From contig NZ_LMHM01000016.1 of assembly GCF_001427785.1 (NCBI RefSeq), positions 779,911 through 843,910 on the forward strand: 64,000 nt of DNA, given 5' to 3'. The position numbers and the translations under genes were made by a program. Shown here one piece after another: positions 4,418-23,266 of this stretch. The notes under the pieces were generated by a model. The model was not told where the DNA came from and made no database searches. It was given only the letters and a program-made list of their open reading frames with translations. Each line of letters begins with the position of its first letter. The first letter of the stretch is position 1. This DNA is from Lysobacter sp. Root690 (GTDB lineage Bacteria > Pseudomonadota > Gammaproteobacteria > Xanthomonadales > Xanthomonadaceae).

Positions 4418-4771
4418 GGGGGTGCACTGGCTTCGACGGGGGTCGCGAAATCGCCTGGTGCATGCCGAGGGGGTAGCTTTCCTCGTTAATCCAGCTGCAA
4501 AACTCTAGTTGCCAACGACGACAACTACGCTCTCGCCGCTTAAGGCGTAAGCCTCGAAACTGCTTGTGTCCGTGCTCGCAGCGTAGAGTCATTATCACGG
4601 AATCGTCGGGAGCGGCTGCCTGTCAGCGCCCGGTTAACCTCTAACAGGCTGGTTCCTGGATGCGCTTCGCGCACCGTGCTGTTCGGGAACGAGATCTAAC
4701 GGAGCGCTAAGCATGTAGTACCGGGGATGGAGTGCCTTCGGACGGGGGTTCGATTCCCCCCACCTCCACCA
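4418..4771 (+). ncRNA. ssrA: tmRNA (ssrA)
   Basis: Transfer-messenger RNA that rescues stalled ribosomes with SmpB. The 5' end GGGGGTGCACTGGCTTCGAC pairs with the 3' end CACCTCC-ACCA, forming the tRNA-like acceptor stem. The T-arm (GGGGGTTCGATTCCCCC) and an encoded CCA are present at the 3' end. The resume codon is GCC at 4511 and the open frame to TAA at 4541-4543 encodes the degradation tag ANDDNYALAA. Pseudoknot-forming segments lie between tag and acceptor. The length, 354 bases, is normal for the one-piece form. The 3' end is a common integration site for islands, but I see no integrase or direct repeat downstream. Confidence 0.97.
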
Positions 4772-4966: not shown

Positions 4967-5368
4967 ATGACGGACGATCCCTATCGCGCCCCCATCCATT
5001 CGGTAAGTGGCCCACCCGCGAGCCGATGGCCGCGTTACGTGGTGATTCTGAGTTTTGTGCAAGTGCTGTCCCGCGTAATGGACAACGCGCCTTCGGCCAT
5101 AGAGATGACCCGCAACGGCGATCTGACGCCCATCAGCTTGTTGGCTCTCGTCCTGTCCTGCGCCACGACGCTGATCGGTGCCGCGATGTTGCTGTGGCGC
5201 AAGCCGCTATCGGCGTCGGCCGCCTATGCGATATCGAGCTTGTTCGCCGCGCTGGTCATGGCTGAGTGGCGGCCGCCGCTGGCATTCACCGGCTTGGGCA
5301 TCGCACTGATCGGGCTTTTGGTAGGTGTGCATATGCGCTTGCAGGTCAGAGCCGCTCGCGCACACTGA
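4967..5368 (+). CDS. Small integral membrane protein, unknown function
   Basis: A predicted 133-residue protein that I do not assign to a family. After a short polar N-terminus (TDDPYRAPIHS, a pattern seen in small Xanthomonadaceae membrane proteins) it has about four hydrophobic segments: near residues 23-40, 53-75, 80-97 and 105-124. The C-terminus is short and basic. It stands alone between the ssrA terminator and the protease genes. The 4820-4966 stretch upstream holds no other gene. Confidence 0.6.
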   Translation: MTDDPYRAPIHSVSGPPASRWPRYVVILSFVQVLSRVMDNAPSAIEMTRNGDLTPISLLALVLSCATTLIGAAMLLWRKPLSASAAYAISSLFAALVMAEWRPPLAFTGLGIALIGLLVGVHMRLQVRAARAH

Positions 5369-5669
5369 GAGCAACACGTCGCAACTGCGGATTGGTCGGC
5401 GCTCCAAGATGCCGGTGCTTCAGCCTGCGTCAACGCGACCGCGCGGTCACTGCCATGACGGTTGACTCCACCGCGATCGGGAGCCGCTTGCAGGTCGCTT
5501 GCTTACGCAGCAAAGCCATCACCCCTTAATCATTCGCACGTCGTCGTAGCGAATCGACAGGAGCCGCCGCCCCACCCTGTCCAACGCGGATGGGCGAGCT
5601 TGGCGCCGAAGGCTTGGCTCAGCGACGCGCGCCGTGCCTGCGCTCGGCCCTCGTACGGGCCGATGCGAA
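5369..5669. other. Intergenic stretch, nothing recognised
   Basis: About 300 bases between convergent genes. I see no convincing gene, repeat or RNA before the terminator hairpin at 5670. Confidence 0.6.
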
Positions 5670-8213: not shown

Positions 8214-8680
8214 TGGCTGGTACCTTGAGGTATTGGCTGGCGACCGGGTCTGGTCGCCGCATGACTCTATTTGCCAAATCCGTCACAAACATGCTGCGGC
8301 GCGGCATTTGCTGAATTGCGTTAATAGCGGGCCAGACGCGTGAGTGTGTTCACATTTCGCGATTTATCGCGCCGGTCGCGAATACCCGGCCCGGTCCGCG
8401 AGCCATCGCCGCTGTTTCGTTCTTGAAACATCGACAACCCACCGGCCGAGCGTATATTCGCCGCGTCGGATGCCGTGTTCACCACCGCATGGACCATGAC
8501 GACTCCGCCGACGACGTGCATTGGGGAAAAGACTCCCTCGCCGAATCACCCAGGACTCGAAAAAGGCACACCCGGCGAGAGCCGGCGTCGCAAAGCCTCC
8601 GGGTACCGGCCCCACGCCGGCACGGCCGAGCTACCGAGCGCATCGAACGGGCGACCACGCCCCGCTCATGGAGTTCTGAC
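8214..8680. other. Divergent promoter region
   Basis: A 467-base spacer between the subtilase gene (minus) and the large secreted protein gene (plus). It must hold both promoters. I see no RNA gene, repeat or clear operator. An open frame continues upstream of the plus-strand gene, but it lacks signal-peptide or domain character. Confidence 0.6.
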
Positions 8681-11152
8681 ATGTCCACTCAACGACGTTG
8701 GCGACCGCTGCTGGCAGCGGCGCTGCTGCTCGCCTCCTCCGCGGCCGGGGCGGCCTCGGTGCAACCGACCACCTATCCAGGCAACTTCACCAGTTGCGAC
8801 GACCTGCCCGGTGTCGCCACCTGGGGCGGCCTGGGCTACAGCACCGGCAGCGCGCCGGTCAACGGCCAGAGCTACAACCTGGGCGTCGCCGGCCAGAGCA
8901 TCACCTTCAACTACACGCCGTCCTCGCAGAACCAGTACATCGGCTTCAACGCGACCATGCCGATGGACTACATCGTGGTCAAAGGCGGCAATGCCTACAA
9001 CGTGTTCCATTACGTTCCAGGTTCGTCCAGCGACATCAACCTGTATTCGCCCGACAACGGCAGCGGTCAACCCGCCGGCGTCAGCCATGTCACCTTCTGC
9101 TTCCTGCCCAAGCCCACTGGCGAGAAGACCGCCGACGCGAGCTGGCAGCGCTACAGCGACTGGAGCATCGACAAACGCGTAGTGCCCGAACAGATCACCA
9201 TGTTCGACGGCGACAGCCACCAGGTCGAATACACCGTGACCGCCACCCCGCTCACTCGCGGGCTGTATCGCATCGCCGGCACGATCACGGTCAAGGACCC
9301 GTTCGATTTCGGCTGGAAAGCCAGCGCGGTGGTCGACACCATGCAGTTCGGCAACGCGCCGAATCAGTTCGTCCGGCAGTGGACCTCGCAGGGCGGCGAC
9401 ACCGATACCCTGGATTGCGCCAAGCCGGCGCCTAACGCGCAGAAGATGATCCTCAACTGCAGTTACGCGTTCGATCTGAGCAGCCTGAGCTATCCGTTCC
9501 TGTCGAGCGCGAGCGGCGGCGTCAACGCCGCGGGCATCACCGCGCAACTGCAAGGCGGCGCGCAGAGCTACACCTTCGTGGCCTCGGCGGGCTTCTCGAT
9601 CCCGGCCAATCCGGCGCAGAGCTACGGCGACAGCTTCGCCATCGACGACTCCATGCTTGCCAACGCCATCGACCACAGCTTCACCCTCGGCGACGGTCCG
9701 TACGTGTGGACCTATCCGCGCGCGCAGCCGTTCGTGTGCGGCGCCGATCAGGGCTCGCACGGCAATACCGCCACCGGCACCTGGAGCACCGGCGCGAACA
9801 GCAACGCCAGCGCCAGCGATTCGGCCAACGTCAACGTGGCATGCCGCACGGTCTCGATATCCAAGACCGCGCAGACCCGCTACGAGCGCGACTACGGCTG
9901 GACGCCGGACAAGCACATCGTGGTGTCGCCGGCCGACGCCAAGGTCACCGCCATGCAGGGCTGCCTGCCCGATCCGATCGCCAGCGGCGATTACGCGGGC
10001 AATTATCTGTGCGACGACGTCGACGTCACCCTGAACACCGGCGGCAGTTACGAGACCGTGTACCGGCTCGCCGCGACCCGCGCCATCGAATCGGAAAGCG
10101 GCTTCGCCGTGTCCGGCGACATCCAGATCGGATGGCCGGCCGACGTGACTCCGCTGTTCAGTCCGTCCGCGCCCAGCGACACCCTGCACTTCGCCGGCGG
10201 AACGACCCAGTCGGTCGCCCCGGCCTGCGACGCGCAAGGCGCCACCTCGCTGCATTGCAGCTATCAGGCCGCGTTGAGCGGCAAGCTGGACGGCTACAAC
10301 GAAGCGATCATCCAGCGCGTGAAGCAGTGCTACGACGCCAACGGCAACGCCAGCGATTGCGGACTGCAGGCCTACACCTCCAATCAGGCCGCGTTGTCCT
10401 ACGGCGAGCCGAACGTGGAGACCGACCGCTGCGTGCTGCTGACCGATCTGTTCAACGGCACCGCCGGGCTCAACCTCGGCACCGGCTTCGGCTGGACGGT
10501 GCAGCCGCTGTTGTGCGGCAGCTTCGCCCAGTTCGTGACCGGCGACGTCGACCCCGATCCAGGCATCGTTCGCAGTGTCGACGTGCTCGCTTCGTGGCTG
10601 CCTCCGAGCCAGATCGGCGCGGGCAATACCTGCCAGTTCATGGTGCCCAACCTGCTCACGCTGGCGACCGACAACGGCGCCAACAAGAGCGACGAGGCGG
10701 TGCTGAGCGTGCGCGTGCCGCAACTGTGCGCGAGCGCGGGCTGCACCTACACCCAGGGCTATTGGAAGACCCACTCCAAGTACGGCCCCGCGCCTTACGA
10801 CGCGACCTGGGCGAAGATCGGCGAAGACACGCTGTTCTTCAGTTCCGGCCAGACGTGGCGCGCGGTGTTCTGGACTCCGCCGAAGGGCGGCAACGCTTAC
10901 TACATCCTGGCGCACCAATACATGGCGGCGCGGTTGAATGTGGAAGCGGGCGCGAGTGCGCCGTCGCAGGTCAGCAGCGCGATCGCGCAGGCGACCGCGT
11001 GGTTCACCGGACGCAGCAGCACGGCGCCGAAGGGACCGGCGCGCGATACCGCGATCAATCTGGCCGGCATCCTCGCTGCGTACAACGAAGGCAGCACCGG
11101 TCCGGGTCATTGCTCGGTTTCGCCGTCCACCCTGGCCAAGGCAACGCAATGA
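8681..11152 (+). CDS. Large secreted protein with C-terminal GYWKTH motif, unknown function
   Basis: An 823-residue protein with a clear signal peptide (RRWRPLLAAALLLASSAAGA-AS, about 26 residues) starting at an ATG with GGAG upstream. The mature part is Cys-, Gly-, Ser- and Asn-rich and looks like successive beta-sandwich modules, with two similar blocks beginning WSIDKRVVPEQITMFDGDSH and YGWTPDKHIVVSPAD. Residues about 685-720 contain CASAGCTYTQGYWKTHSKYG, a TQGYWKTH motif that recurs near the C-terminus of secreted actinobacterial and xanthomonad proteins of unknown role. No catalytic motif or sorting signal is visible. It is followed by a weak hairpin and is likely a single-gene unit. An adhesive or structural surface role is only a guess. 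Confidence 0.75.
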   Translation: MSTQRRWRPLLAAALLLASSAAGAASVQPTTYPGNFTSCDDLPGVATWGGLGYSTGSAPVNGQSYNLGVAGQSITFNYTPSSQNQYIGFNATMPMDYIVVKGGNAYNVFHYVPGSSSDINLYSPDNGSGQPAGVSHVTFCFLPKPTGEKTADASWQRYSDWSIDKRVVPEQITMFDGDSHQVEYTVTATPLTRGLYRIAGTITVKDPFDFGWKASAVVDTMQFGNAPNQFVRQWTSQGGDTDTLDCAKPAPNAQKMILNCSYAFDLSSLSYPFLSSASGGVNAAGITAQLQGGAQSYTFVASAGFSIPANPAQSYGDSFAIDDSMLANAIDHSFTLGDGPYVWTYPRAQPFVCGADQGSHGNTATGTWSTGANSNASASDSANVNVACRTVSISKTAQTRYERDYGWTPDKHIVVSPADAKVTAMQGCLPDPIASGDYAGNYLCDDVDVTLNTGGSYETVYRLAATRAIESESGFAVSGDIQIGWPADVTPLFSPSAPSDTLHFAGGTTQSVAPACDAQGATSLHCSYQAALSGKLDGYNEAIIQRVKQCYDANGNASDCGLQAYTSNQAALSYGEPNVETDRCVLLTDLFNGTAGLNLGTGFGWTVQPLLCGSFAQFVTGDVDPDPGIVRSVDVLASWLPPSQIGAGNTCQFMVPNLLTLATDNGANKSDEAVLSVRVPQLCASAGCTYTQGYWKTHSKYGPAPYDATWAKIGEDTLFFSSGQTWRAVFWTPPKGGNAYYILAHQYMAARLNVEAGASAPSQVSSAIAQATAWFTGRSSTAPKGPARDTAINLAGILAAYNEGSTGPGHCSVSPSTLAKATQ

Positions 11153-14067: not shown

Positions 14068-15318
14068 ATGCGCGTGTTGACGCGCTCGGTATTGCGCGGC
14101 GCGGCTTGGTTGCGCGTGTCGGCTGCGAAGCTGCGGTTGCGCTTCGTCGCCATGGCCGCGCCGTGGCTGCTTGGTGCGGGCGTGGTGAGCGCGATGGCAT
14201 GGGTGACAGCGAGTTCGGCGCAGGATGTCGGCGACGACACGATGCGAGGTGCCGACTCGCCCAGCCTGGCGCAATGCCGCGAACGCATCGCGATCAGCAG
14301 CGTGCAGATCGATCGCGACTGCCTGCGTCGCGTCTACCGCCTGCCGATCGAACAATGGCCGCGGCCGCAGCTCGAGCCCGGCGCGCTGTGGTCTGAATTC
14401 GCGCCGCTGCCGAAAGCCGCGCCCTCCCCGGCCGACAATCCGCCGAGCGCGGAGAAACTCGCGCTCGGGCGCCGGTTGTTCGAAGACCCGCGCTTGTCGG
14501 GTTCCGGACAGATCGCCTGCGCGAGCTGCCACGATCGCGAACTGGGCTGGGGCGATGGCCGCAGCGTGCCGTTCGGCCACGATCGCCAGAGCGGACGCCG
14601 CAATGCGATCTCGCTCGCGATGAGCGGTCTGTCGCAGCCGCTGTTCTGGGACGGCCGCGCGCAGACCCTGGAAGCGCAGGCGCTGCATCCGATCGCCGAT
14701 CCGCGCGAAATGGCGGCCAAGCCGTCGCTGGTCTTGAAGCGATTGCGTCGCGACGCCGACTACCCGAAGGCGTTCGGCGCCGCATTCGGCTCATCGCGCA
14801 TCGACATGGACCAAGTGAGCAAGGCGCTGGCCGTGTTTCAGCGCAGTCTGCTGCCGCGCGCCAACCGCTTCGACCGGTTCCTGGAAGGCCGCCGCGATCT
14901 GCTCGACGATCGCCAACTGTGGGGCTTGCACCTGTTCCGCACCCGCGCCGGCTGCATGAACTGTCACAGCGGCGCGAGCCTGAGCGATCAGTCGTTCCAT
15001 AACCTCGGCCTGCATTTCTACGGCCGAAAACTGCAAGATCTGGGCCGTTACGAAGTCACCGGCCTGGCCGCCGATGCCGGCAAGTTCAAGACGCCGTCGC
15101 TGCGCAACGTGGCCAAGACCGGGCCGTGGATGCACAACGGCCGGTTCGCCAATCTGCGCGGGGTGATGAATCTGTACAACGCCGGCATGCCCAGGCCGCA
15201 GCCGACCTCGGCGCAGATCGGCGACCCGCTGTTTCCGCAACCCGATCCGCTGCTCAAGCCGCTGGACCTGCATCGCGCCGAGCTCGATGCGATCGTGGCC
15301 TATCTGGAAACGCTGTAG
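14068..15318 (+). CDS. Diheme cytochrome c peroxidase / MauG-family protein
   Basis: A 416-residue periplasmic protein with a long, basic N-terminus and a hydrophobic signal segment at about 30-51. It has two c-type haem sites, CASCH (151-155) and CMNCH (296-300), and the family motifs FWDGRAQTLEAQALHPI and KFKTPSLRNVAKTGPWMHNG. Bacterial members reduce peroxide or, as MauG/MbnH-like enzymes, oxidise peptidyl residues. It has GAGGGGAAG before the ATG and follows the TonB-dependent receptor closely. Haem attachment would depend on the Ccm system encoded at 54-62 kb. It converges with queH 13 bases downstream. Confidence 0.9.
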   Translation: MRVLTRSVLRGAAWLRVSAAKLRLRFVAMAAPWLLGAGVVSAMAWVTASSAQDVGDDTMRGADSPSLAQCRERIAISSVQIDRDCLRRVYRLPIEQWPRPQLEPGALWSEFAPLPKAAPSPADNPPSAEKLALGRRLFEDPRLSGSGQIACASCHDRELGWGDGRSVPFGHDRQSGRRNAISLAMSGLSQPLFWDGRAQTLEAQALHPIADPREMAAKPSLVLKRLRRDADYPKAFGAAFGSSRIDMDQVSKALAVFQRSLLPRANRFDRFLEGRRDLLDDRQLWGLHLFRTRAGCMNCHSGASLSDQSFHNLGLHFYGRKLQDLGRYEVTGLAADAGKFKTPSLRNVAKTGPWMHNGRFANLRGVMNLYNAGMPRPQPTSAQIGDPLFPQPDPLLKPLDLHRAELDAIVAYLETL

Positions 15319-15331
15319 CGCGCCGAATCCG

Positions 15332-16003
15332 TTACTTGGTCTCGGGTTCGCCGCCGCCGTCTTCGCCGTAGAACATCACCCCGAGCTTGATCCGCTCGCG
15401 ACCCTGCGCCTTGCGATGGCGGTTGGTGTCGCGCAGCGAATACACGCAGCCGCAGTATTCCTGCTGATAGAACTGCTCGCGCTTGCTGATCTCGATCATG
15501 CGCTGGCTGCCGCCTTGCTTGCGCCAGTTGTAGTCCCAGTAACTCAAATGCGGATACGGCGCGACCGCGCGGCGGCCGGAGTCGTTGATCTGCTGCATGT
15601 TCTTCCAGCGCGAAATTCCCAGTGAGGTGGTCATCACTGGGAAGCCATGCTCGTGCGCATACAGCGCGCTGCGTTCGAAGCGCATATCGAAGCACATGGT
15701 GCAGCGGATGCCGCGCTCAGGCTCGTTCTCCATGCCTTTGGCGCGGGCGAACCAGTGGTCGGTGTCGTAATCGGCATCGACGAAGGGCACGCCGTGCTTC
15801 TGCGCGAAGCGGATGTTTTCCTCCTTGCGCAGTTCGTATTCCTTCACCGGGTGGATGTTCGGGTTGTAGAAGAACACCGTGTAGTCGATCTGCGATTCGA
15901 CGAAGGCCTCCATCAACTCGCCCGAACACGGCGCGCAGCACGAATGCAGCAGCAGTTTGCCGCCCTCGCCCGGCAGGCTCAGGCGCTCGCGTTCGCCGCT
16001 CAT
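15332..16003 (-). CDS. queH: Epoxyqueuosine reductase QueH (cobalamin-independent)
   Basis: A 223-residue enzyme for the last step of queuosine synthesis, reduction of epoxyqueuosine in tRNA. The family cysteines and motifs are present: [10 protein letters not shown] near the N-terminus, [23 protein letters not shown] and YCGCVYSL. These cysteines hold the Fe-S cluster and nearby metal in characterised QueH. It is the non-homologous, B12-independent replacement for the cobalamin enzyme QueG. Its ATG overlaps the mmsB stop by four bases (ATGA), making it the sixth and last gene of an operon led by a cobalamin riboswitch; that position gives the riboswitch a plausible purpose. Confidence 0.95.
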
Positions 16004-16890
16004 GCGGCCGGCGCCACCAGCTTGACCACGCTGGAGAAATCCAGGCCGCCGTGGCCGGCGCGGCTGTTCATCGCGTATAGATTGCGCGCCAGTTCGCCCA
16101 GCGGAATCGACGCGCCGACGCCCATCGCGGCTTCGGCCGCCAAGCCGAGGTCCTTGAGCATAAGGTCATTGCCGAAACCGCCGCTGTAGCCGCGCGAGGC
16201 CGGCGCATTTTCGAGGACTCCTGGCCACGGATTGCATACTTCGGTGGCCCAGCTGCGGCTGGTGCTGACCGCCATCATCTGCGACAACACTTTCGGGTCG
16301 AGACCATGCGCGACGCCCAGCGCCAGCGCTTCGCCGGTCACCGCCATGATCACGCCAAGCGCCATGTTGTTGCACAGCTTGGCGACCTGGCCGGCGCCGT
16401 TCGCGCCGACGTGGAAGATGTTCTTGCCCATCGCCTGCAGAATCGGACGCGCGCGCTCCAGTGCATCGGCGTCGCCGCCGACGATGAAGGTCAAGCTGCC
16501 GGCGGCCGCGCCCGCGGTGCCGCCGGAAACCGGCGCGTCGATCATTACCACGCCCCGCTGCGCCGCGACGGCCGCGACCTTCTGCGCCGAAGCCGGCGCG
16601 ATGGTGCTGCAATCGATGACCAAGGCGCCCGGTTCGATCGCGGCGAGAATGCCGGCGTCGCCGAGGTACAAGCCTTCGACATGCCGGCTCGCCGGCAGCA
16701 TCGAGATCACGATCTGCGCTCCGGTGACGGCTGCCGATGCGGTCGCGGCCGCGTGCGCGCCAGCCGCAACTGCGGTTTCGACCGCGGCGGCGCTCAGGTC
16801 GAACACTTGCAATGCGTAGCCGGCCTTGAGCAGGTTCGCGGCCATCGGGCCGCCCATGTTGCCAAGACCGATGAAAGCGATAGTGGTCAT
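16000..16890 (-). CDS. mmsB: 3-hydroxyisobutyrate dehydrogenase
   Basis: A 296-residue NAD-dependent dehydrogenase of valine degradation that converts 3-hydroxyisobutyrate to methylmalonate semialdehyde. The N-terminal Rossmann motif is [18 protein letters not shown]. The substrate-binding segment [20 protein letters not shown] and the catalytic Lys region [12 protein letters not shown] are both intact. The start at 16890 overlaps the upstream hydrolase stop by four bases, and the end overlaps queH. Length and motifs are those of full-length family members. Confidence 0.95.
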
Positions 16891-18062
16891 GCCGGATTCT
16901 CCACACTGTGCTCGAGATCGGCCAGCGGATGCGCGTCCTGCGGCCACGGCGCGACGAAGAACGGGGCGGCCCAGGCCGACGAGGCATCGGCCAGCGTGGC
17001 CGGGTGCCACTTCGGATTGCGGTCCTTGTCGATCAACAAGGCGCGGATGCCTTCGGCGAAATCGCCGTGCGCGGCGCAATGCAGCGACACCAGGTATTCG
17101 AGCCGGAACGTGTCGGCCAACGACAGCGTCGCCGCGCGTTGTTGCAGTTCGTAGCCCAGTCGCGCCGAGCCCGGCGCGCCCGCGGCCAAGGTCTTGCGCG
17201 CGGTCTGCAACCACGCATCGTCGCTGTCGATTGCGTCGATCCGCGCGACGATCGTGTCCAGGTCTTCGGCATCGCACAGCTGCGCGATCAGCTCAGCGTG
17301 CTGTTGCAGCGGTCCGGCCGGCGCGGGCTGCGCCTGCGCTTGCAGCAATTGGGTCAGCAGCCCGCGATTCCGCGCGCCGTCGCCGCTCCATTGCGTCGCA
17401 ACCAAGGCCGCGAACACAGCGTCGTATCGCTCCTGCGGAACATAGTGATCGGCCAGCCCCGAAAAAATCGCGTCGCCTGCATTCAATGGCGCACCGGTCA
17501 ATGCCAGGAACAGGCCGCTGCGCGCGGGCGCGCGCCGCAGCAACCAACTGCCGCCGACATCCGGATACAGGCCGACGGTGATTTCCGGAAACGCCAGTCG
17601 CGAACGTTCGCTGGCGACGCGATGGCTGGCGCCGGCCATCAGGCCGATGCCGCCGCCCATGACGATGCCGTGGCCCCAGCACAACACCGGCTTGGGATAG
17701 CTGTGGATGCGGTAGTCGAGCCGATATTCGGTGGCGAAGAACGCCGTGGCCTGGGTGTTGTCGCGGATATCGCCGCTACCCGTGGCCTGATACTCGCGCA
17801 TGCCGCGATACAGGCCGTGCAGATCGCCGCCGGCGCAGAAGGCTTTCTCGCCCGCGCCCTGCAGCACGACCAATGCGATCGCGTCGTCGCGCGCCCACGC
17901 CGCCAGTTGCGCATCGAGCAACTGCGCCATTTCCAGCGAAAGCCCGTTGAGCGTGGCCGGCGCGTTGAGCGTGGCGATGCCGATCTGCTTGCCGCCGATC
18001 GCGGCGCGTTGTTCGAACAACACCGGCGCCTGCGCCGGGGTTTCGAGGAGCGAGGCGTTCAT
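16887..18062 (-). CDS. 3-hydroxyisobutyryl-CoA hydrolase
   Basis: A 391-residue crotonase-superfamily enzyme predicted to release 3-hydroxyisobutyrate from its CoA ester, the step before mmsB. Family features include GEKAFCAGGDLHGLYRG, the oxyanion-hole segment GIVMGGGIGLMAGASHRVAS and RLAFPEITVGLYPDVGGSWL, which contains the Glu of hydrolases. It is longer than simple enoyl-CoA hydratases because of the C-terminal region typical of HIBYL-CoA hydrolases (DRNPKWHPATL). The ATG at 18062 overlaps the preceding stop as ATGA; an in-frame ATG at 18074 is possible. Confidence 0.93.
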   Translation of the reverse strand: MNASLLETPAQAPVLFEQRAAIGGKQIGIATLNAPATLNGLSLEMAQLLDAQLAAWARDDAIALVVLQGAGEKAFCAGGDLHGLYRGMREYQATGSGDIRDNTQATAFFATEYRLDYRIHSYPKPVLCWGHGIVMGGGIGLMAGASHRVASERSRLAFPEITVGLYPDVGGSWLLRRAPARSGLFLALTGAPLNAGDAIFSGLADHYVPQERYDAVFAALVATQWSGDGARNRGLLTQLLQAQAQPAPAGPLQQHAELIAQLCDAEDLDTIVARIDAIDSDDAWLQTARKTLAAGAPGSARLGYELQQRAATLSLADTFRLEYLVSLHCAAHGDFAEGIRALLIDKDRNPKWHPATLADASSAWAAPFFVAPWPQDAHPLADLEHSVENPA

Positions 18063-18853
18063 GCGTTCTTCCATTGCGGCGCGCGCTTTTCCAGGAACGC
18101 GGCCACGCCTTCGACCTGATCCGCGCTGTCGAACAAGTCGACGAAGGCTTCGCGCTCGCTGACCAGCGCGGTCGCATGGGATTGCGAACGCGTGGCCTGC
18201 ACCAGCGCCTTGCACGCGGCCACGCTGGTCGGGCTCTGCTTCTCTGCCGCCTTGGCCCAGGCCAATGCACGCGCTTTCGATTCGCCCTTGCCTACCACGT
18301 CCTCGACCAGGCCAATGCGCAGCGCGGTCGCGGCATCGACGCGCTCGCCGAGCAGCATCATCCGCTTGGCCCAGCCTTCGCCAACCAGTCGCGCCAGGTT
18401 CTGGGTGCCACCCGCGCACGGCAGCAGGCCGACGGTCGCTTCCGGCAAGGCCAGCTGTGCCTGTTCCTCGACGATGCGCAGATCGCAGGCCAGCGCGCAT
18501 TCCAGGCCGCCGCCCATCGCATAGCCGTTGATCGCGGCGATCGACACGCCGCGAAACGCGCTGAGGGTTTCGAAGGCTTCGCCGAAACGGCGTGCCGCGT
18601 CGCGCGCCAGCGCCTTGTCGCCGCTGGCGAACTGCTTGAGATCGGCGCCAGCGGAAAAGAACTTCTCGCCTTCGCCGGTGATCACCAACGCGTACACGTC
18701 GCGCTGCGCATCGAGGTCGCGGACCAGGTCGCGCAAGGCCGCGAGGCTGTCGCGGGTCCAGGTGTTGGCCGGCGGGTTGCTCAGGGTGACCACGGCGGTG
18801 TGGCCGTCGATCTCCAGCTTCAACCCGGTGTAGGACTTCTCGGCAAGACTCAT
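18059..18853 (-). CDS. Enoyl-CoA hydratase
   Basis: A 264-residue crotonase-fold hydratase, probably acting on methacrylyl-CoA in valine catabolism. Motifs are SAGADLKQFASGD and INGYAMGGGLECALACDLRI with the oxyanion-hole Gly residues, then LALPEATVGLLPCAGGTQNL. It overlaps both neighbours by four bases. Position between an acyl-CoA dehydrogenase and a 3-hydroxyisobutyryl-CoA hydrolase fixes its likely step; broader substrate use is possible. Confidence 0.93.
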   Translation of the reverse strand: MSLAEKSYTGLKLEIDGHTAVVTLSNPPANTWTRDSLAALRDLVRDLDAQRDVYALVITGEGEKFFSAGADLKQFASGDKALARDAARRFGEAFETLSAFRGVSIAAINGYAMGGGLECALACDLRIVEEQAQLALPEATVGLLPCAGGTQNLARLVGEGWAKRMMLLGERVDAATALRIGLVEDVVGKGESKARALAWAKAAEKQSPTSVAACKALVQATRSQSHATALVSEREAFVDLFDSADQVEGVAAFLEKRAPQWKNA

Positions 18854-20040
18854 CGCAATTCCTCGTCGGTGTTCAGCAGATGGCGCGCGATGATCACGCG
18901 CATGATTTCGTTGGTGCCTTCCAGGATCTGATGCACCCGGCAGTCGCGCAGCAGGCGTTCGATCGGGTATTCGCGGATGTAGCCGTAGCCGCCGTGGATC
19001 TGCAGCGATTCGTTGCAGATCGCGAAGCCCGCATCGGTGGCAAAGCGCTTGGCCATCGCGCACCACACGGTCGCGTCATGGCTGCCCGCATCGACCTTGC
19101 GCGCGGCGGTATGCACCATCTGCCGCGAGGCGATCAGCTGCGTGGCCATGTCGGCGAGCTTGAACTGCAAGGCCTGGAACTCGGACAGCTTCTTGCCGAA
19201 CTGGCGGCGTTCGCCCATGTAGCGCCGCGCCGCGTCGAGCGCGCCCTGAGCCGCGCCGAGCGAACAACTGGCGATGTTCAAGCGCCCGCCATCCAAGCCC
19301 TTCATCGCGATCTTGAAGCCGTCACCCTCGCGGCCAAGCAGATTGCGCGCCGGCACCCGCACGTCGACGAACGTTATGCTGCGGGTAGGCTGGCTGTTCC
19401 AGCCCATCTTCTCTTCCTTGCGCCCGTAAGTGATGCCGGCGCTGTCGGCGGCGACCGCGAACGCGCTGATGCCGCGCGCGCCTTCGCCGCCGGTGCGCGC
19501 CATCACCACCAGCACGTCGGTCGCTCCGGCGCCGGAAATAAACGCCTTCGCGCCATTGAGCACGTAATGATCGCCATCGCGGACCGCGCGCGTCTTCAGC
19601 GACGCCGCGTCCGATCCGGCGCCCGGTTCGGTCAGGCAATACGAAGCCAGGCGCTGGCCGCTCGCCAGCGATGCGCCCCATTCGGCGCGCACCGCGTCGT
19701 TGGCGTGCGCGGTCAACATCCACGTCGCCATGTTGTGGATGCTGATGAACGCCGCCGTCGACGGATCGATCGCGGCGAGTTCTTCGAACACGATCGCCGC
19801 GTCCAGTCGGGTCAGGCCCGAACCGCCGGCGGCTTCGTCCACGTACAGACCGCAGAAACCCAGTTCGCCCGCCAGCGCGATCGCTTCGCGCGGAAACACG
19901 CACTGCGCGTCCCAATGCGCGGCGTGCGGCGCGAGTTGCGCGAGCGCGAAATCGCGCGCCGCGTCGCGATAGGCGGCTTGTTCTTCGCTCAGTCCGGTCG
20001 GCGCGGCCGCGGTGGCCTGCCAGTGCATGACCGCGGCCAT
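18850..20040 (-). CDS. Acyl-CoA dehydrogenase, probably isobutyryl-CoA specific
   Basis: A 396-residue FAD enzyme. It shows the ACAD signatures YCLTEPGAGSDAASLKTRA (FAD/substrate loop) and QIHGGYGYIREYPIERLLRD, and the C-terminal HQILEGTNEIMRVIIARHLL that carries the catalytic Glu in this subfamily. In this operon it should oxidise isobutyryl-CoA to methacrylyl-CoA. The ATG at 20040 overlaps the mmsA stop (TGATG); a second in-frame ATG lies at 20028. It overlaps the hydratase by four bases. Confidence 0.93.
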   Translation of the reverse strand: MAAVMHWQATAAAPTGLSEEQAAYRDAARDFALAQLAPHAAHWDAQCVFPREAIALAGELGFCGLYVDEAAGGSGLTRLDAAIVFEELAAIDPSTAAFISIHNMATWMLTAHANDAVRAEWGASLASGQRLASYCLTEPGAGSDAASLKTRAVRDGDHYVLNGAKAFISGAGATDVLVVMARTGGEGARGISAFAVAADSAGITYGRKEEKMGWNSQPTRSITFVDVRVPARNLLGREGDGFKIAMKGLDGGRLNIASCSLGAAQGALDAARRYMGERRQFGKKLSEFQALQFKLADMATQLIASRQMVHTAARKVDAGSHDATVWCAMAKRFATDAGFAICNESLQIHGGYGYIREYPIERLLRDCRVHQILEGTNEIMRVIIARHLLNTDEELR

Positions 20041-21563
20041 CACATGAGACTGATCGTGGTATTGACGCCGTGGCCCTGGGTCTCGTCGTCGAACCAGCGC
20101 GCGGTGACGGTCTTGGTCTGGGTGTAGAACATCACCGCCTGCTTGCCGTACGGCCCCAGGTCGCCGAGCTTGGACGCGCGCGAACCGGTGAACGAGAACA
20201 GCGGCACCGGCACCGGAATCGGCAGGTTGATGCCGACCTGGCCGATGTCGATCTCTTCCTGGAACTTGCGCGCCGCCGCGCCCGACTGGGTGAAGATCGC
20301 GGTGCCGTTGCCGTTGGGATTGGCGTTGACCAGCGCGATCGCGTCGTCGAGCGTGTCGGCTTCGAGAATCACCAACACCGGGCCGAAGATTTCTTCGTCG
20401 TAGATGCGCATGCCCGGCTTGACCCCGGAAAACACGGTCGGGCCGATGAAATTGCCTTGTTCGTAACCCGGCACCGACGGCTTGCGTCCGTCGAGTTCCA
20501 GCTTCGCGCCCTGCTCCACGCCCGAAGCGATCAAGGCTTCGACGCGTTCGCGCGCGGCGCAAGAAATCACCGGACCGACATCGGTGCCCGGCTCGGTGCC
20601 GGCATTGACCTTGAGGGTCTTGGCCTTGACGACCAGATCGGCGATCCAGTGCCGCGCCTCGCCCACCATCACCGCGGTCGATGCGGCCATGCAGCGCTGC
20701 CCGGCCGCGCCGAACGCGGCGCCGGCCATGGCGTTGAGGGTTTGCTCCTTGTTCGCGTCGGGCAGAACGACGGCGTGATTCTTCGCGCCCATCATGCACT
20801 GCACACGCTTGCCGGCCAGCGAGGAACGCTGATAGACATGGGTGCCGACCTTGGTCGAACCGACGAACGACACCGCGCGGATATCGGCGTGATCGCAGAT
20901 CGCGTTGACCACGTCTTCGCCGCCGTGGACGACGTTGAGCACGCCCTTCGGAATGCCGGCCTGCAGCGCCAGTTCGACCAGGCGCATGGTCACCAGCGGG
21001 TCCTGTTCGGACGGCTTGAGCACGAAGGTGTTGCCGGTGGCGATCGCCATCGGGAACATCCACAACGGAATCATCGCCGGGAAATTGAACGGGGTGATGC
21101 CGGCGCAGACGCCGAGCGGTTGCAGCAAGGTGTAGGTGTCGACGCCGCCGGCGACGTTGTTGGCCAGTTCGCCCAGTTGCAGGTTGCCGATCGCGGCCGC
21201 GTGTTCGACCACTTCCAGGCCGCGGAACACATCGCCTTCGGCGTCGGGCAGGGTCTTGCCTTGTTCGGCGGTCAGGATCGCGGCGAGCTCGCTCATGTGC
21301 TCGCGGATCAACTGCTGGTATTTGAGGAAGATGCGCGCGCGCGTGCCGATCGCGGTCTTGCGCCAGCTCTTGAACGCTTGCGCGGCCGAGGCGACCGCGG
21401 CGTCGACTTCCTCGCGCGTGGCCATCGGCACGCGGGCCAGCACGACCTGGGTGGCCGGGTTGACGACGTCGCGCCATTGAGTGGTGGTGGACTCGACGAA
21501 TTCGCCGTCGATCAGAAGCTTGACCGTCGCGACCTCGGTCGCAACGCGATGCATTTCGTTCAT
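20040..21563 (-). CDS. mmsA: CoA-acylating methylmalonate-semialdehyde dehydrogenase
   Basis: A 507-residue aldehyde dehydrogenase that converts methylmalonate semialdehyde plus CoA to propionyl-CoA, the last valine-specific step. Features are [20 protein letters not shown], the NAD-binding [21 protein letters not shown], the catalytic Cys in AAGQRCMA, and EEIFGPVLV. Its ATG has GGAGAA nine bases upstream. It is the first gene of a six-gene, fully overlapping minus-strand operon ending in queH. The 150-base stretch before it is occupied by a cobalamin riboswitch and an expression-platform palindrome. Confidence 0.96.
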
Positions 21564-21694
21564 GCTCGTTCTCCGTGACGCACACCCGCGGATAAGCGGA
21601 TGTCGCGGAGACGCAAGACGAGACAAGGCGAGGCAACGGCGAACGCAGGCCGACTGCATCAGCTCGTCCGGTTGCCCGCCGCAACATCCGAGGA

Positions 21695-21714
21695 GGACAT
21701 CGCATGCGATGTCC
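21695..21714 (-). promoter_or_regulatory. Palindrome in riboswitch expression platform
   Basis: The perfect palindrome GGACATCGCATGCGATGTCC directly follows the riboswitch, and its first bases coincide with the 3' strand of riboswitch P1. On the mRNA it is followed by CCTCCTC, complementary to a Shine-Dalgarno core. Competition between P1 and this hairpin, possibly exposing CCTCC to pair with the mmsA ribosome site, is a plausible switch mechanism. There is no T-run, so translational control or Rho is more likely than intrinsic termination. Confidence 0.55.
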
Positions 21715-21896
21715 GCCACGGGCCGGTCTCCGGGCTTGCGAGCGATGCCAATGCATCACCCCGACACCTTCCCGCGCGAACGCAGTGGTGAAACGTCGGG
21801 TTTTCTCGCATACCGTTGCGGGGGCAGCGCCGGCCTTGGACGATCCCGTCCGCACCGGCTTCCCGTTTCACCCTGCGCGCCGGTATGGCTTGGCGG
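21713..21896 (-). promoter_or_regulatory. Cobalamin riboswitch
   Basis: Read 5' to 3' on the minus strand, the conserved core of the cobalamin (B12) riboswitch is present in order. GGGAAGCCGGTG lies at 21864-21853, GCTGCCCCCGCAACGGTA at 21828-21811, and CACTGCG at 21787-21781. GGGAAGG follows at 21773-21767 and GCCCGGAGACCGGCC at 21735-21721. P1 can form from CCGCCA (21896-21891) and TGGCGG (21718-21713). Order, spacing and about 184-base length match the family. Such elements normally lower expression when adenosylcobalamin or another cobalamin binds. The downstream gene is mmsA, 150 bases away, with no gene in between. Confidence 0.93.
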
Positions 21897-22039
21897 CAGG
21901 ACACCTGTGGCGTGCGCAGTGTAGTGCCGGGGTACGGCGTGGACAAGCTGCGGGGGCGTATGTGGGGGTTAGGTGATCTGGCGCGCTGTTCGCTTAATCG
22001 GGTCATGTCGCAAGGACGAACCAACGCGACTTCAACGTT

Positions 22040-22200
22040 ATCTTCCAGAACGTCATTCCCGCGAAGGCGGGAATCCAGAGACTTAAAACGTCCTCGCACG
22101 AAAGTCGCTGGATTCCCGCGTTCGCGGGAATGACGTTCTGGAGGACGACGCTGAAGTCTCTGGATTCCCGCCTTCGCGGGAATGACGTTCTTGAAAGAGC
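22040..22200. repeat. Dispersed palindromic repeat cluster
   Basis: Three copies of the family seen at 59-462: a facing pair with GTCATTCCCGCGAAGGCGGG and CCCGCGTTCGCGGGAATGAC, then one more unit preceded by the linker GACGCTGAAGTCTCTGG. It separates the riboswitch leader from the hypothetical gene at 22241. Confidence 0.85.
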
Positions 22201-22240
22201 GTCAATGAGTTCTGTGGATGTGACTTCGAGAAAACGCGCA

Positions 22241-23266
22241 CTACTTCGCACAATCCGAAAGCTGCTTATCCGCATACCACACCGCCCGACGCGCCTGGTC
22301 GTAGGCCATATCCGCAGTGCGCGGCAGGAGTTGTTCGATCTGAATCGGATCGCCGCCGCGCGCCGCGGCATATTCGGCGCGTTGCAGGTCGGCCAAGTGA
22401 ATCAGCACCGGCGCCACCAACGCCTTCAATCGCTGTCGGTCGCAACCCGCCGCGCTCGCTTCCAGTTCGCCGACCCACTTGCGCACGCGCCGGCTGGCTT
22501 CGCCCTGCAGGCCGGGCGCTTTCTCGAACGCGATCGGCGCGGCCTTGTAGGCATCGCCAGTGGCTTCGCTGCCCAGGTCGGAGGGTCGCTCGTGCAAGGC
22601 GGGATTGAAACGCACCGGCGGCGGTGGTCGCGCGCGCACTTCCTGCACCTGTTTGCGATGCGGCAGTTTGGCGATCACCCGCTTCAGGCCTGTCTTGAGT
22701 CTCTTGGTCGCCACCTCGCTCAGGGTGCCGTCGCTTTCCCACTCGCCGCCGAAACTGCTGCCTTCCTCGGGCGCAATCGGATTGCGACGTTCCAAGAGCG
22801 CCTGCATCTGTTTCACACCACGATCGTTCGCGCCACCTGGCGGGTCGCCGTCGGGCTTGCGCATCGGGTCCACGGCGACGCCCGCGGGCAACACGATCTG
22901 TCCGTCGGCTGCGTACAGCCGGCTGGTGGTCGGCGGCGTGGCTGGAGTCGTCGCCGGACGCATCGGCACATCGGGTAGCCGCTCGTTGCGAGGCGGAACG
23001 GAACTCGGAGAGGTTGCCGCGTCAGGGGGAACGCTTCGCGTTGGTTGCGTTGGTTGCGTCGGCGGCACGATAGACAGTGGTTGCGACGGCGACGGCTGCG
23101 CATCGGCGACGACGCGTTCGATATAGATCACGTCCAGCGCCGGCGCGGTCGACGGCAGTTCGGGCATCCGGAACAGCAACCAGCCGCTGAGCAGGCAAAA
23201 CGCGATGGCGATCGACGCGGCGGCGACATGGACGAAGAAGTCCTGCGGAAGCGCTGCCTTCTTCAT
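22241..23266 (-). CDS. Membrane-anchored proline-rich protein, unknown function
   Basis: A 341-residue protein that I do not recognise. One N-terminal membrane helix (about 12-34, VAAASIAIAFCLLSGWLLF) is followed by a long Pro/Thr/Ser-rich linker (about 55-125) and a predicted helical, basic C-terminal domain with Cys residues and repeated Arg/Ala-rich helices. The layout, a helix plus a proline-rich spacer, recalls TonB-like or periplasm-spanning anchors, but no TonB motif is seen. The ATG has AAGGA upstream; in-frame starts further upstream lack it. Confidence 0.65.
   Translation of the reverse strand: MKKAALPQDFFVHVAAASIAIAFCLLSGWLLFRMPELPSTAPALDVIYIERVVADAQPSPSQPLSIVPPTQPTQPTRSVPPDAATSPSSVPPRNERLPDVPMRPATTPATPPTTSRLYAADGQIVLPAGVAVDPMRKPDGDPPGGANDRGVKQMQALLERRNPIAPEEGSSFGGEWESDGTLSEVATKRLKTGLKRVIAKLPHRKQVQEVRARPPPPVRFNPALHERPSDLGSEATGDAYKAAPIAFEKAPGLQGEASRRVRKWVGELEASAAGCDRQRLKALVAPVLIHLADLQRAEYAAARGGDPIQIEQLLPRTADMAYDQARRAVWYADKQLSDCAK

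Follow-up and report, generated by a model that had tools for sequence, protein, structure and literature searches.

A cobalamin riboswitch ahead of a valine-degradation and queH operon in Lysobacter sp. Root690: a probable B12-independent stand-in for isobutyryl-CoA mutase and QueG

Organization of the Locus

In a stretch of 64,000 nucleotides from Lysobacter sp. Root690 (contig NZ_LMHM01000016.1; hereafter the window), a minus-strand operon of valine-degradation genes ending in queH is headed by a cobalamin riboswitch, and it is the reason for this pairing that is discussed here. The aptamer (21704-21923, minus strand) is matched by RF00174 over its full length, i.e., model positions 1-189, with 104.2 bits and an E value of 5.3e-25 against a gathering score of 31.5 (cmscan); the upper boundary of the feature under study (15332-21896) lies 27 bases inside it. 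The aptamer is followed by a leader of 140 bases (21564-21703, minus strand), a putative expression platform, in which the block TTGCGGCGGGC, common to riboswitch-mmsA leaders according to their alignment, and the Shine-Dalgarno sequence CGGAG can be found, the latter preceding the ATG start of mmsA.

Six genes are arranged behind this leader, all on the same strand. The first, mmsA (20040-21563), encodes a CoA-acylating methylmalonate-semialdehyde dehydrogenase of 507 amino acids (TIGR01722 MMSDH, 734 bits against a cut-off of 448.5). It is followed by an acyl-CoA dehydrogenase gene (18850-20040) whose product has Pfam acyl-CoA dehydrogenase domains and is presumed to be an isobutyryl-CoA dehydrogenase, a substrate assigned from the operon because no NCBIfam model scores above its cut-off, and by an enoyl-CoA hydratase gene (18059-18853; NF006566, 446 bits, over cut-off), presumably for a methacrylyl-CoA hydratase. 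The remaining genes encode a 3-hydroxyisobutyryl-CoA hydrolase (16887-18062; NF004127, 330 bits against a cut-off of 274; PF16113), the 3-hydroxyisobutyrate dehydrogenase MmsB (16000-16890; TIGR01692 HIBADH, 398 bits, over cut-off) and the epoxyqueuosine reductase QueH (15332-16003; PF02677, 220 bits against 23.5). From mmsA to queH, consecutive genes overlap by 1, 4, 4, 4, and 4 bases. A cobalamin riboswitch in the mmsA leader and six genes overlapping by 1-4 bases had both been claimed in a sequence-only reading of this DNA, and both claims hold: the aptamer and the overlapping valine-queH operon are confirmed, the six genes being probably carried on a single transcript. No sigma-70-like site was returned by a consensus scan of 15200-22400 (0.8 expected), which says little in a GC-rich genome.

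Directly upstream of the riboswitch (22028-22195) there are three palindromic repeat units of the type ATTCCCGCGAAGGCGGGAAT, with inverted arms of 57 bases. At the other end, a gene of the di-haem cytochrome c peroxidase/MauG family (14068-15318, plus strand; PF03150) converges on queH, the two genes ending 13 bases apart with no clear terminator in between.

Regarding the expression platform, an intrinsic terminator was considered, but a consensus scan of the minus strand from the aptamer to mmsA returned nothing resembling one, again a finding of little weight in a GC-rich genome. A block TTGCGGYGGGC is located 3' of the aptamer in the 11 loci of L001-L033 where a riboswitch precedes mmsA, and the other 22 riboswitch loci lack it; it is also present in the riboswitch-mmsA leaders of genomes G066, G076, and G102, of Luteibacter sp. 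OK325 and of Stenotrophomonas mori, while a single extra match (L151 at 5481, other strand, 4.5 kb off mmsA) looks like chance. Folds were predicted for nine representative leaders, that of Undibacterium being excluded as not alignable. The mmsA Shine-Dalgarno sequence has a mean pairing probability above 0.5 in eight of them, G076 being the exception, which suggests translational control at mmsA, passed on to the downstream genes through the coupled overlaps. The mean duplex energy is -21.6 kcal/mol in these nine leaders vs. -17.4 kcal/mol in 20 unswitched mmsA leaders, the start codons of the latter being uncertain.

B12 Regulon and B12-Dependent Counterparts

Five RF00174 elements can be found in the genome, including that of mmsA. 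The other four lead nrdA (TIGR02506), metE (TIGR01371), btuB (TIGR01779, over cut-off), behind which lie cobA, cobB, cbiB, cobD, and cobT, and a second btuB-type receptor, of which 457 residues are available, scoring 463 bits, i.e., below the cut-off of 600. Three of the five riboswitches thus head genes for B12-free functions, the other two genes for B12 uptake and its late synthesis or salvage. The sequence-only reading had proposed looking in the genome for QueG and other B12-dependent enzymes; QueG, the B12-dependent counterpart of QueH, is indeed encoded, together with NrdJ, the counterpart of the nrdA product, and the fused isobutyryl-CoA mutase IcmF.

IcmF uses adenosylcobalamin to interconvert isobutyryl-CoA and n-butyryl-CoA. 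Here it is encoded outside the window as one chain of 1204 residues (NF045497, fused isobutyryl-CoA mutase/GTPase, 1680 bits against a cut-off of 1500) and is the sole PF01642 locus found, the same search of the genome returning no separate methylmalonyl-CoA mutase. The protein aligns in three stretches with the solved IcmF 4xc6, from which it differs by extra linkers (1204 vs. 1113 residues). One repetitive linker rich in Ser, Thr, Asn, and Gly (L120, about 5300-5465) is absent from the solved IcmF and may be an in-frame repeat insertion. A glutamine is found at the position where human methylmalonyl-CoA mutase has an arginine, a position which we take to be significant for mutase specificity. 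Two specificity positions, Tyr and Arg, are described for methylmalonyl-CoA mutases (PMC7238569). By analogy, the operon would stand in the same relation to IcmF as metE does to MetH, the same isobutyryl-CoA being oxidized without B12.

Distribution Among Relatives

The association between the riboswitch, mmsA and the mutase was followed in a family sample of 149 genomes, where an mmsA orthologue means at least 81% identity, and in a genus sample of 20. In both, PF01642 served as the marker for IcmF, the NF045497 score applying to the Root690 protein only; in most rows, the split-domain matches in open frames of about 1100 amino acids or more fit IcmF. In the family, PF01642 is present in 124 genomes and mmsA in 26, the two occurring together in 6, PF01642 without mmsA in 118, mmsA without PF01642 in 20, and neither in 5, so that the two avoid each other (Fisher p 3e-15, uncorrected for kinship). 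All six family genomes with both (G000, G002, G003, G066, G076, and G102) have an RF00174 element just upstream of mmsA; none of the 20 with mmsA only has one within the 5.0-6.5 kb around mmsA scanned with Rfam. In the genus, PF01642 is found in all 20 genomes and mmsA in 11, each time with RF00174 upstream (11 of 11). Since three genomes are common to both samples, riboswitch, mmsA, and PF01642 occur together in 14 of 14 distinct genomes.

A wider set of 80 named mmsA loci, some with short upstream sequence (e.g., 807 bases in L143), was searched with a riboswitch nucleotide HMM, which is less sensitive than Infernal; for the 13 loci also scanned with Rfam the two agree. Four matches were obtained, all confirmed with Rfam: three before mmsA, in Luteibacter sp. 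OK325, S. mori, and Undibacterium crateris, and one before queH in an uncultured Stenotrophomonas. The Undibacterium element, from a betaproteobacterium, differs in sequence and spacing, and its genome encodes IcmF. Neither a riboswitch at mmsA nor IcmF is found in the Janthinobacterium (L178) and Collimonas (L160) genomes searched. IcmF was searched for in 49 of the 80 named genomes, of which 8 have a match over cut-off, 18 a mutase match that stays below it and is of the methylmalonyl-CoA mutase type, and 23 none. The riboswitch precedes mmsA in two of the eight (Luteibacter OK325 and Undibacterium), in none of the 18, and, among the 23, in S. mori only. A Luteibacter metagenome-assembled genome (MAG), which may be incomplete, encodes QueG and carries the genes from mmsA to queH, with neither an IcmF match nor a riboswitch.

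In a protein tree of 58 MmsA sequences, the riboswitch-bearing members form two nearby groups, with Undibacterium far off: one comprises the genus, G066, and Luteibacter, with the Luteibacter MAG that lacks the riboswitch interspersed, and the other G076, G102, and S. mori. Both traits are known for 57 rows (L163, for which the IcmF state is lacking, is omitted); riboswitch and IcmF are both present in 16 and both absent in 34, the riboswitch alone occurs in 1 and IcmF alone in 6.

Interpretation and Competing Explanations

Cobalamin riboswitches usually repress in the presence of B12, and the oxidative route of valine ends in propionyl-CoA. On the strength of the genes and elements described above, the operon is probably a B12-independent stand-in for two B12-dependent functions, IcmF and QueG. 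When adenosylcobalamin is ample, it would bind the aptamer and the genes from mmsA to queH would be repressed; isobutyryl-CoA derived from valine would then be converted into n-butyryl-CoA by IcmF, and epoxyqueuosine would be reduced by QueG. Under B12 shortage, the leader would open, and QueH would take over together with the five-enzyme route, in which isobutyryl-CoA is expected to pass through methacrylyl-CoA, 3-hydroxyisobutyryl-CoA, 3-hydroxyisobutyrate, and methylmalonate semialdehyde to propionyl-CoA.

It can also be proposed that queH is the selected target and that the valine genes are mere passengers in its operon. QueH replaces QueG (PMC5372724), and that queH is a logical target of B12 repression, as the sequence-only reading had argued, is supported because QueG is also encoded in the genome. 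In G088, G114, G139, and the uncultured Stenotrophomonas (loci L123, L128, L129, and L136, grouping with Stenotrophomonas), queH alone directly follows the riboswitch; these genomes have no PF01642 or IcmF match and a nearby mmsA operon without riboswitch. In G020, which lacks PF01642, it leads a cobalamin-independent methionine synthase domain protein and then queH (L058, 6547-8702, minus strand). S. mori, without an IcmF match, has a riboswitch-led mmsA operon ending in queH, and QueG; since, in addition, its aptamer (L152, 9672-9874) is lower-scoring, with 76 bits and CCGCCG where other riboswitches have CCACTG in a block that is elsewhere constant, the riboswitch may have queH as its target or be degenerating. 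However, the evidence does not favour queH as the sole natural target: it is missing from the riboswitch-led valine operons of Luteibacter OK325 and Undibacterium, both of which have IcmF, and in a third such operon, that of G066, it is split over two frames. Likewise, the Luteibacter MAG keeps the operon, queH, and QueG without riboswitch, and in G035 and G108, which encode both QueH and QueG, the stretch surrounding queH contains no riboswitch. For these reasons, selection on queH as the whole explanation seems unlikely. G036 has no QueG match, and its riboswitch near queH lies behind the gene, not before it; G048 is uninformative, the contig end being too close. In general, the riboswitch is found ahead of those genes that duplicate a B12-dependent function without B12. 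In G020, an S-adenosylhomocysteine (SAH) riboswitch before the gene for S-adenosylhomocysteine hydrolase adjoins the riboswitch-queH genes.

Descent without present function, whereby the riboswitch arrived a single time with this lineage of the operon and its co-occurrence with IcmF reflects kinship alone, would account for the TTGCGGYGGGC block common to the riboswitch-mmsA leaders of the genus, G066, G076, G102, Luteibacter OK325, and S. mori, and for the small number of independent events. It is nevertheless a rather improbable account, as Undibacterium combines a distinct riboswitch with IcmF while the Janthinobacterium and Collimonas genomes searched have neither, riboswitch and IcmF go together within Luteibacter, and Streptomyces griseus provides a third, distant case in print (PMC8914203).

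The proposal of the sequence-only reading, that B12 decides the use of methylmalonyl-CoA mutase so that the route is opened or shut accordingly, agrees with the propionyl-CoA end product but is very improbable and is rejected for Root690, where the only PF01642 locus found is IcmF with no separate methylmalonyl-CoA mutase, and the proposal therefore loses its basis, the more so as none of the 18 named mmsA genomes (out of 49) with a sub-cut-off mutase match has the riboswitch at mmsA and as the usual repression by B12 would close the route under the very conditions in which B12-dependent use of propionyl-CoA becomes possible.

Several results weigh against a B12-independent stand-in for IcmF and QueG. 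Six of the eight named genomes with mmsA and IcmF have no riboswitch at mmsA (L149, L172, L180, L193, L195, and L196, i.e., one gammaproteobacterial MAG and five Burkholderiales), and they may regulate the choice of route otherwise; conversely, S. mori has the riboswitch before mmsA and no IcmF match, and the neat rule for queH is broken by G035 and G108. On the MmsA tree, the minimum number of changes is about 4 for the riboswitch and 6 for IcmF; independent pairs agree in 2.4 of 3 and are opposed in 0.0 on average, with a sign test p of 0.25 or more, so that, with so few independent events, the co-occurrence cannot reach significance. Its strength lies in the counts and its weakness in the scarcity of such events. 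The mutual exclusion of PF01642 and mmsA also deserves caution: for 36 of the 62 genomes listed, the only match is an aldehyde dehydrogenase 46-52% identical to MmsA, which was not counted as such, and the exclusion would weaken should some of these prove to be genuine methylmalonate-semialdehyde dehydrogenases. Finally, the Shine-Dalgarno helix is not singled out by arm swaps among the nine leaders, 4498 and 1417 of 20000 permutations, in two versions, matching the native pairing.

The stand-in interpretation can be carried further, with somewhat less assurance. The riboswitch would then swap whole pathways, with IcmF leading to n-butyryl-CoA in B12-replete cells and the mmsA route to propionyl-CoA in B12-poor ones; this arrangement seems to have arisen more than once (in Lysobacteraceae/Luteibacter, in Undibacterium, and in the printed Streptomyces case), and valine breakdown would be a physiological role of bacterial isobutyryl-CoA mutases. 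If this is true, IcmF gains such a role, the supply of B12 decides the end product of valine, and the rarity of IcmF and the mmsA route in one genome within the family is explained. One riboswitch here appears to govern a whole catabolic bypass.

Other Features of the Window

Elsewhere in the window, a c-di-GMP-I riboswitch (8555-8638, plus strand; RF01051, 42.8 bits against 35) precedes a long open frame ending at 11152, whose product resembles a secreted protein, and a tmRNA gene lies at 4418-4771 (plus strand; RF00023, 200.8 bits).

Comparison With Known Systems

That cobalamin riboswitches precede genes for B12-free isozymes is textbook knowledge. The principle has also been stated without reference to the genes discussed here (PMC3766115, PMC9600662). 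As in the metE and nrdAB cases, an RF00174 aptamer is found with B12-free genes behind it and B12-dependent counterparts in the genome, namely IcmF and QueG, as is NrdJ for nrdA. Unlike in these cases, a five-enzyme pathway with another end product replaces one mutase step, and queH is added in the operon. Enzymes and route are those of the Pseudomonas-type mmsAB valine operons, which differ in gene order; of the 80 named loci, those from Pseudomonas gave no riboswitch match before mmsA.

The nearest parallel is S. griseus, where a cobalamin riboswitch is likewise predicted before mmsA with valine-degradation genes downstream, and where growth-dependent premature termination is described (PMC8914203). 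According to these authors, no cobalamin study of valine degradation exists; no reason for the pairing of riboswitch and mmsA is given, and the terms mutase and isobutyryl are absent from the main text. The two systems differ in that S. griseus is an actinomycete, that premature transcription termination is reported for it, and that queH is not mentioned in the text available (PMC8914203). Isobutyryl-CoA mutase is known from Streptomyces cinnamonensis (cited in PMC7238569), and because Streptomyces is known for this enzyme the distant case fits, by analogy, an explanation through IcmF. Isobutyryl-CoA mutase as the reason for a riboswitch on mmsA was not found in a literature search outside which lie subscription papers, including early surveys of the B12 regulon, so that priority is uncertain; the available parts of PMC11575231, PMC11494915, and PMC7857532 have no bearing on the question. 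Taken together with these systems, the Root690 operon is best read as the known isozyme principle, i.e., the logic of metE and nrdA, extended to a pathway, of which there has been one earlier, unexplained sighting in Streptomyces.

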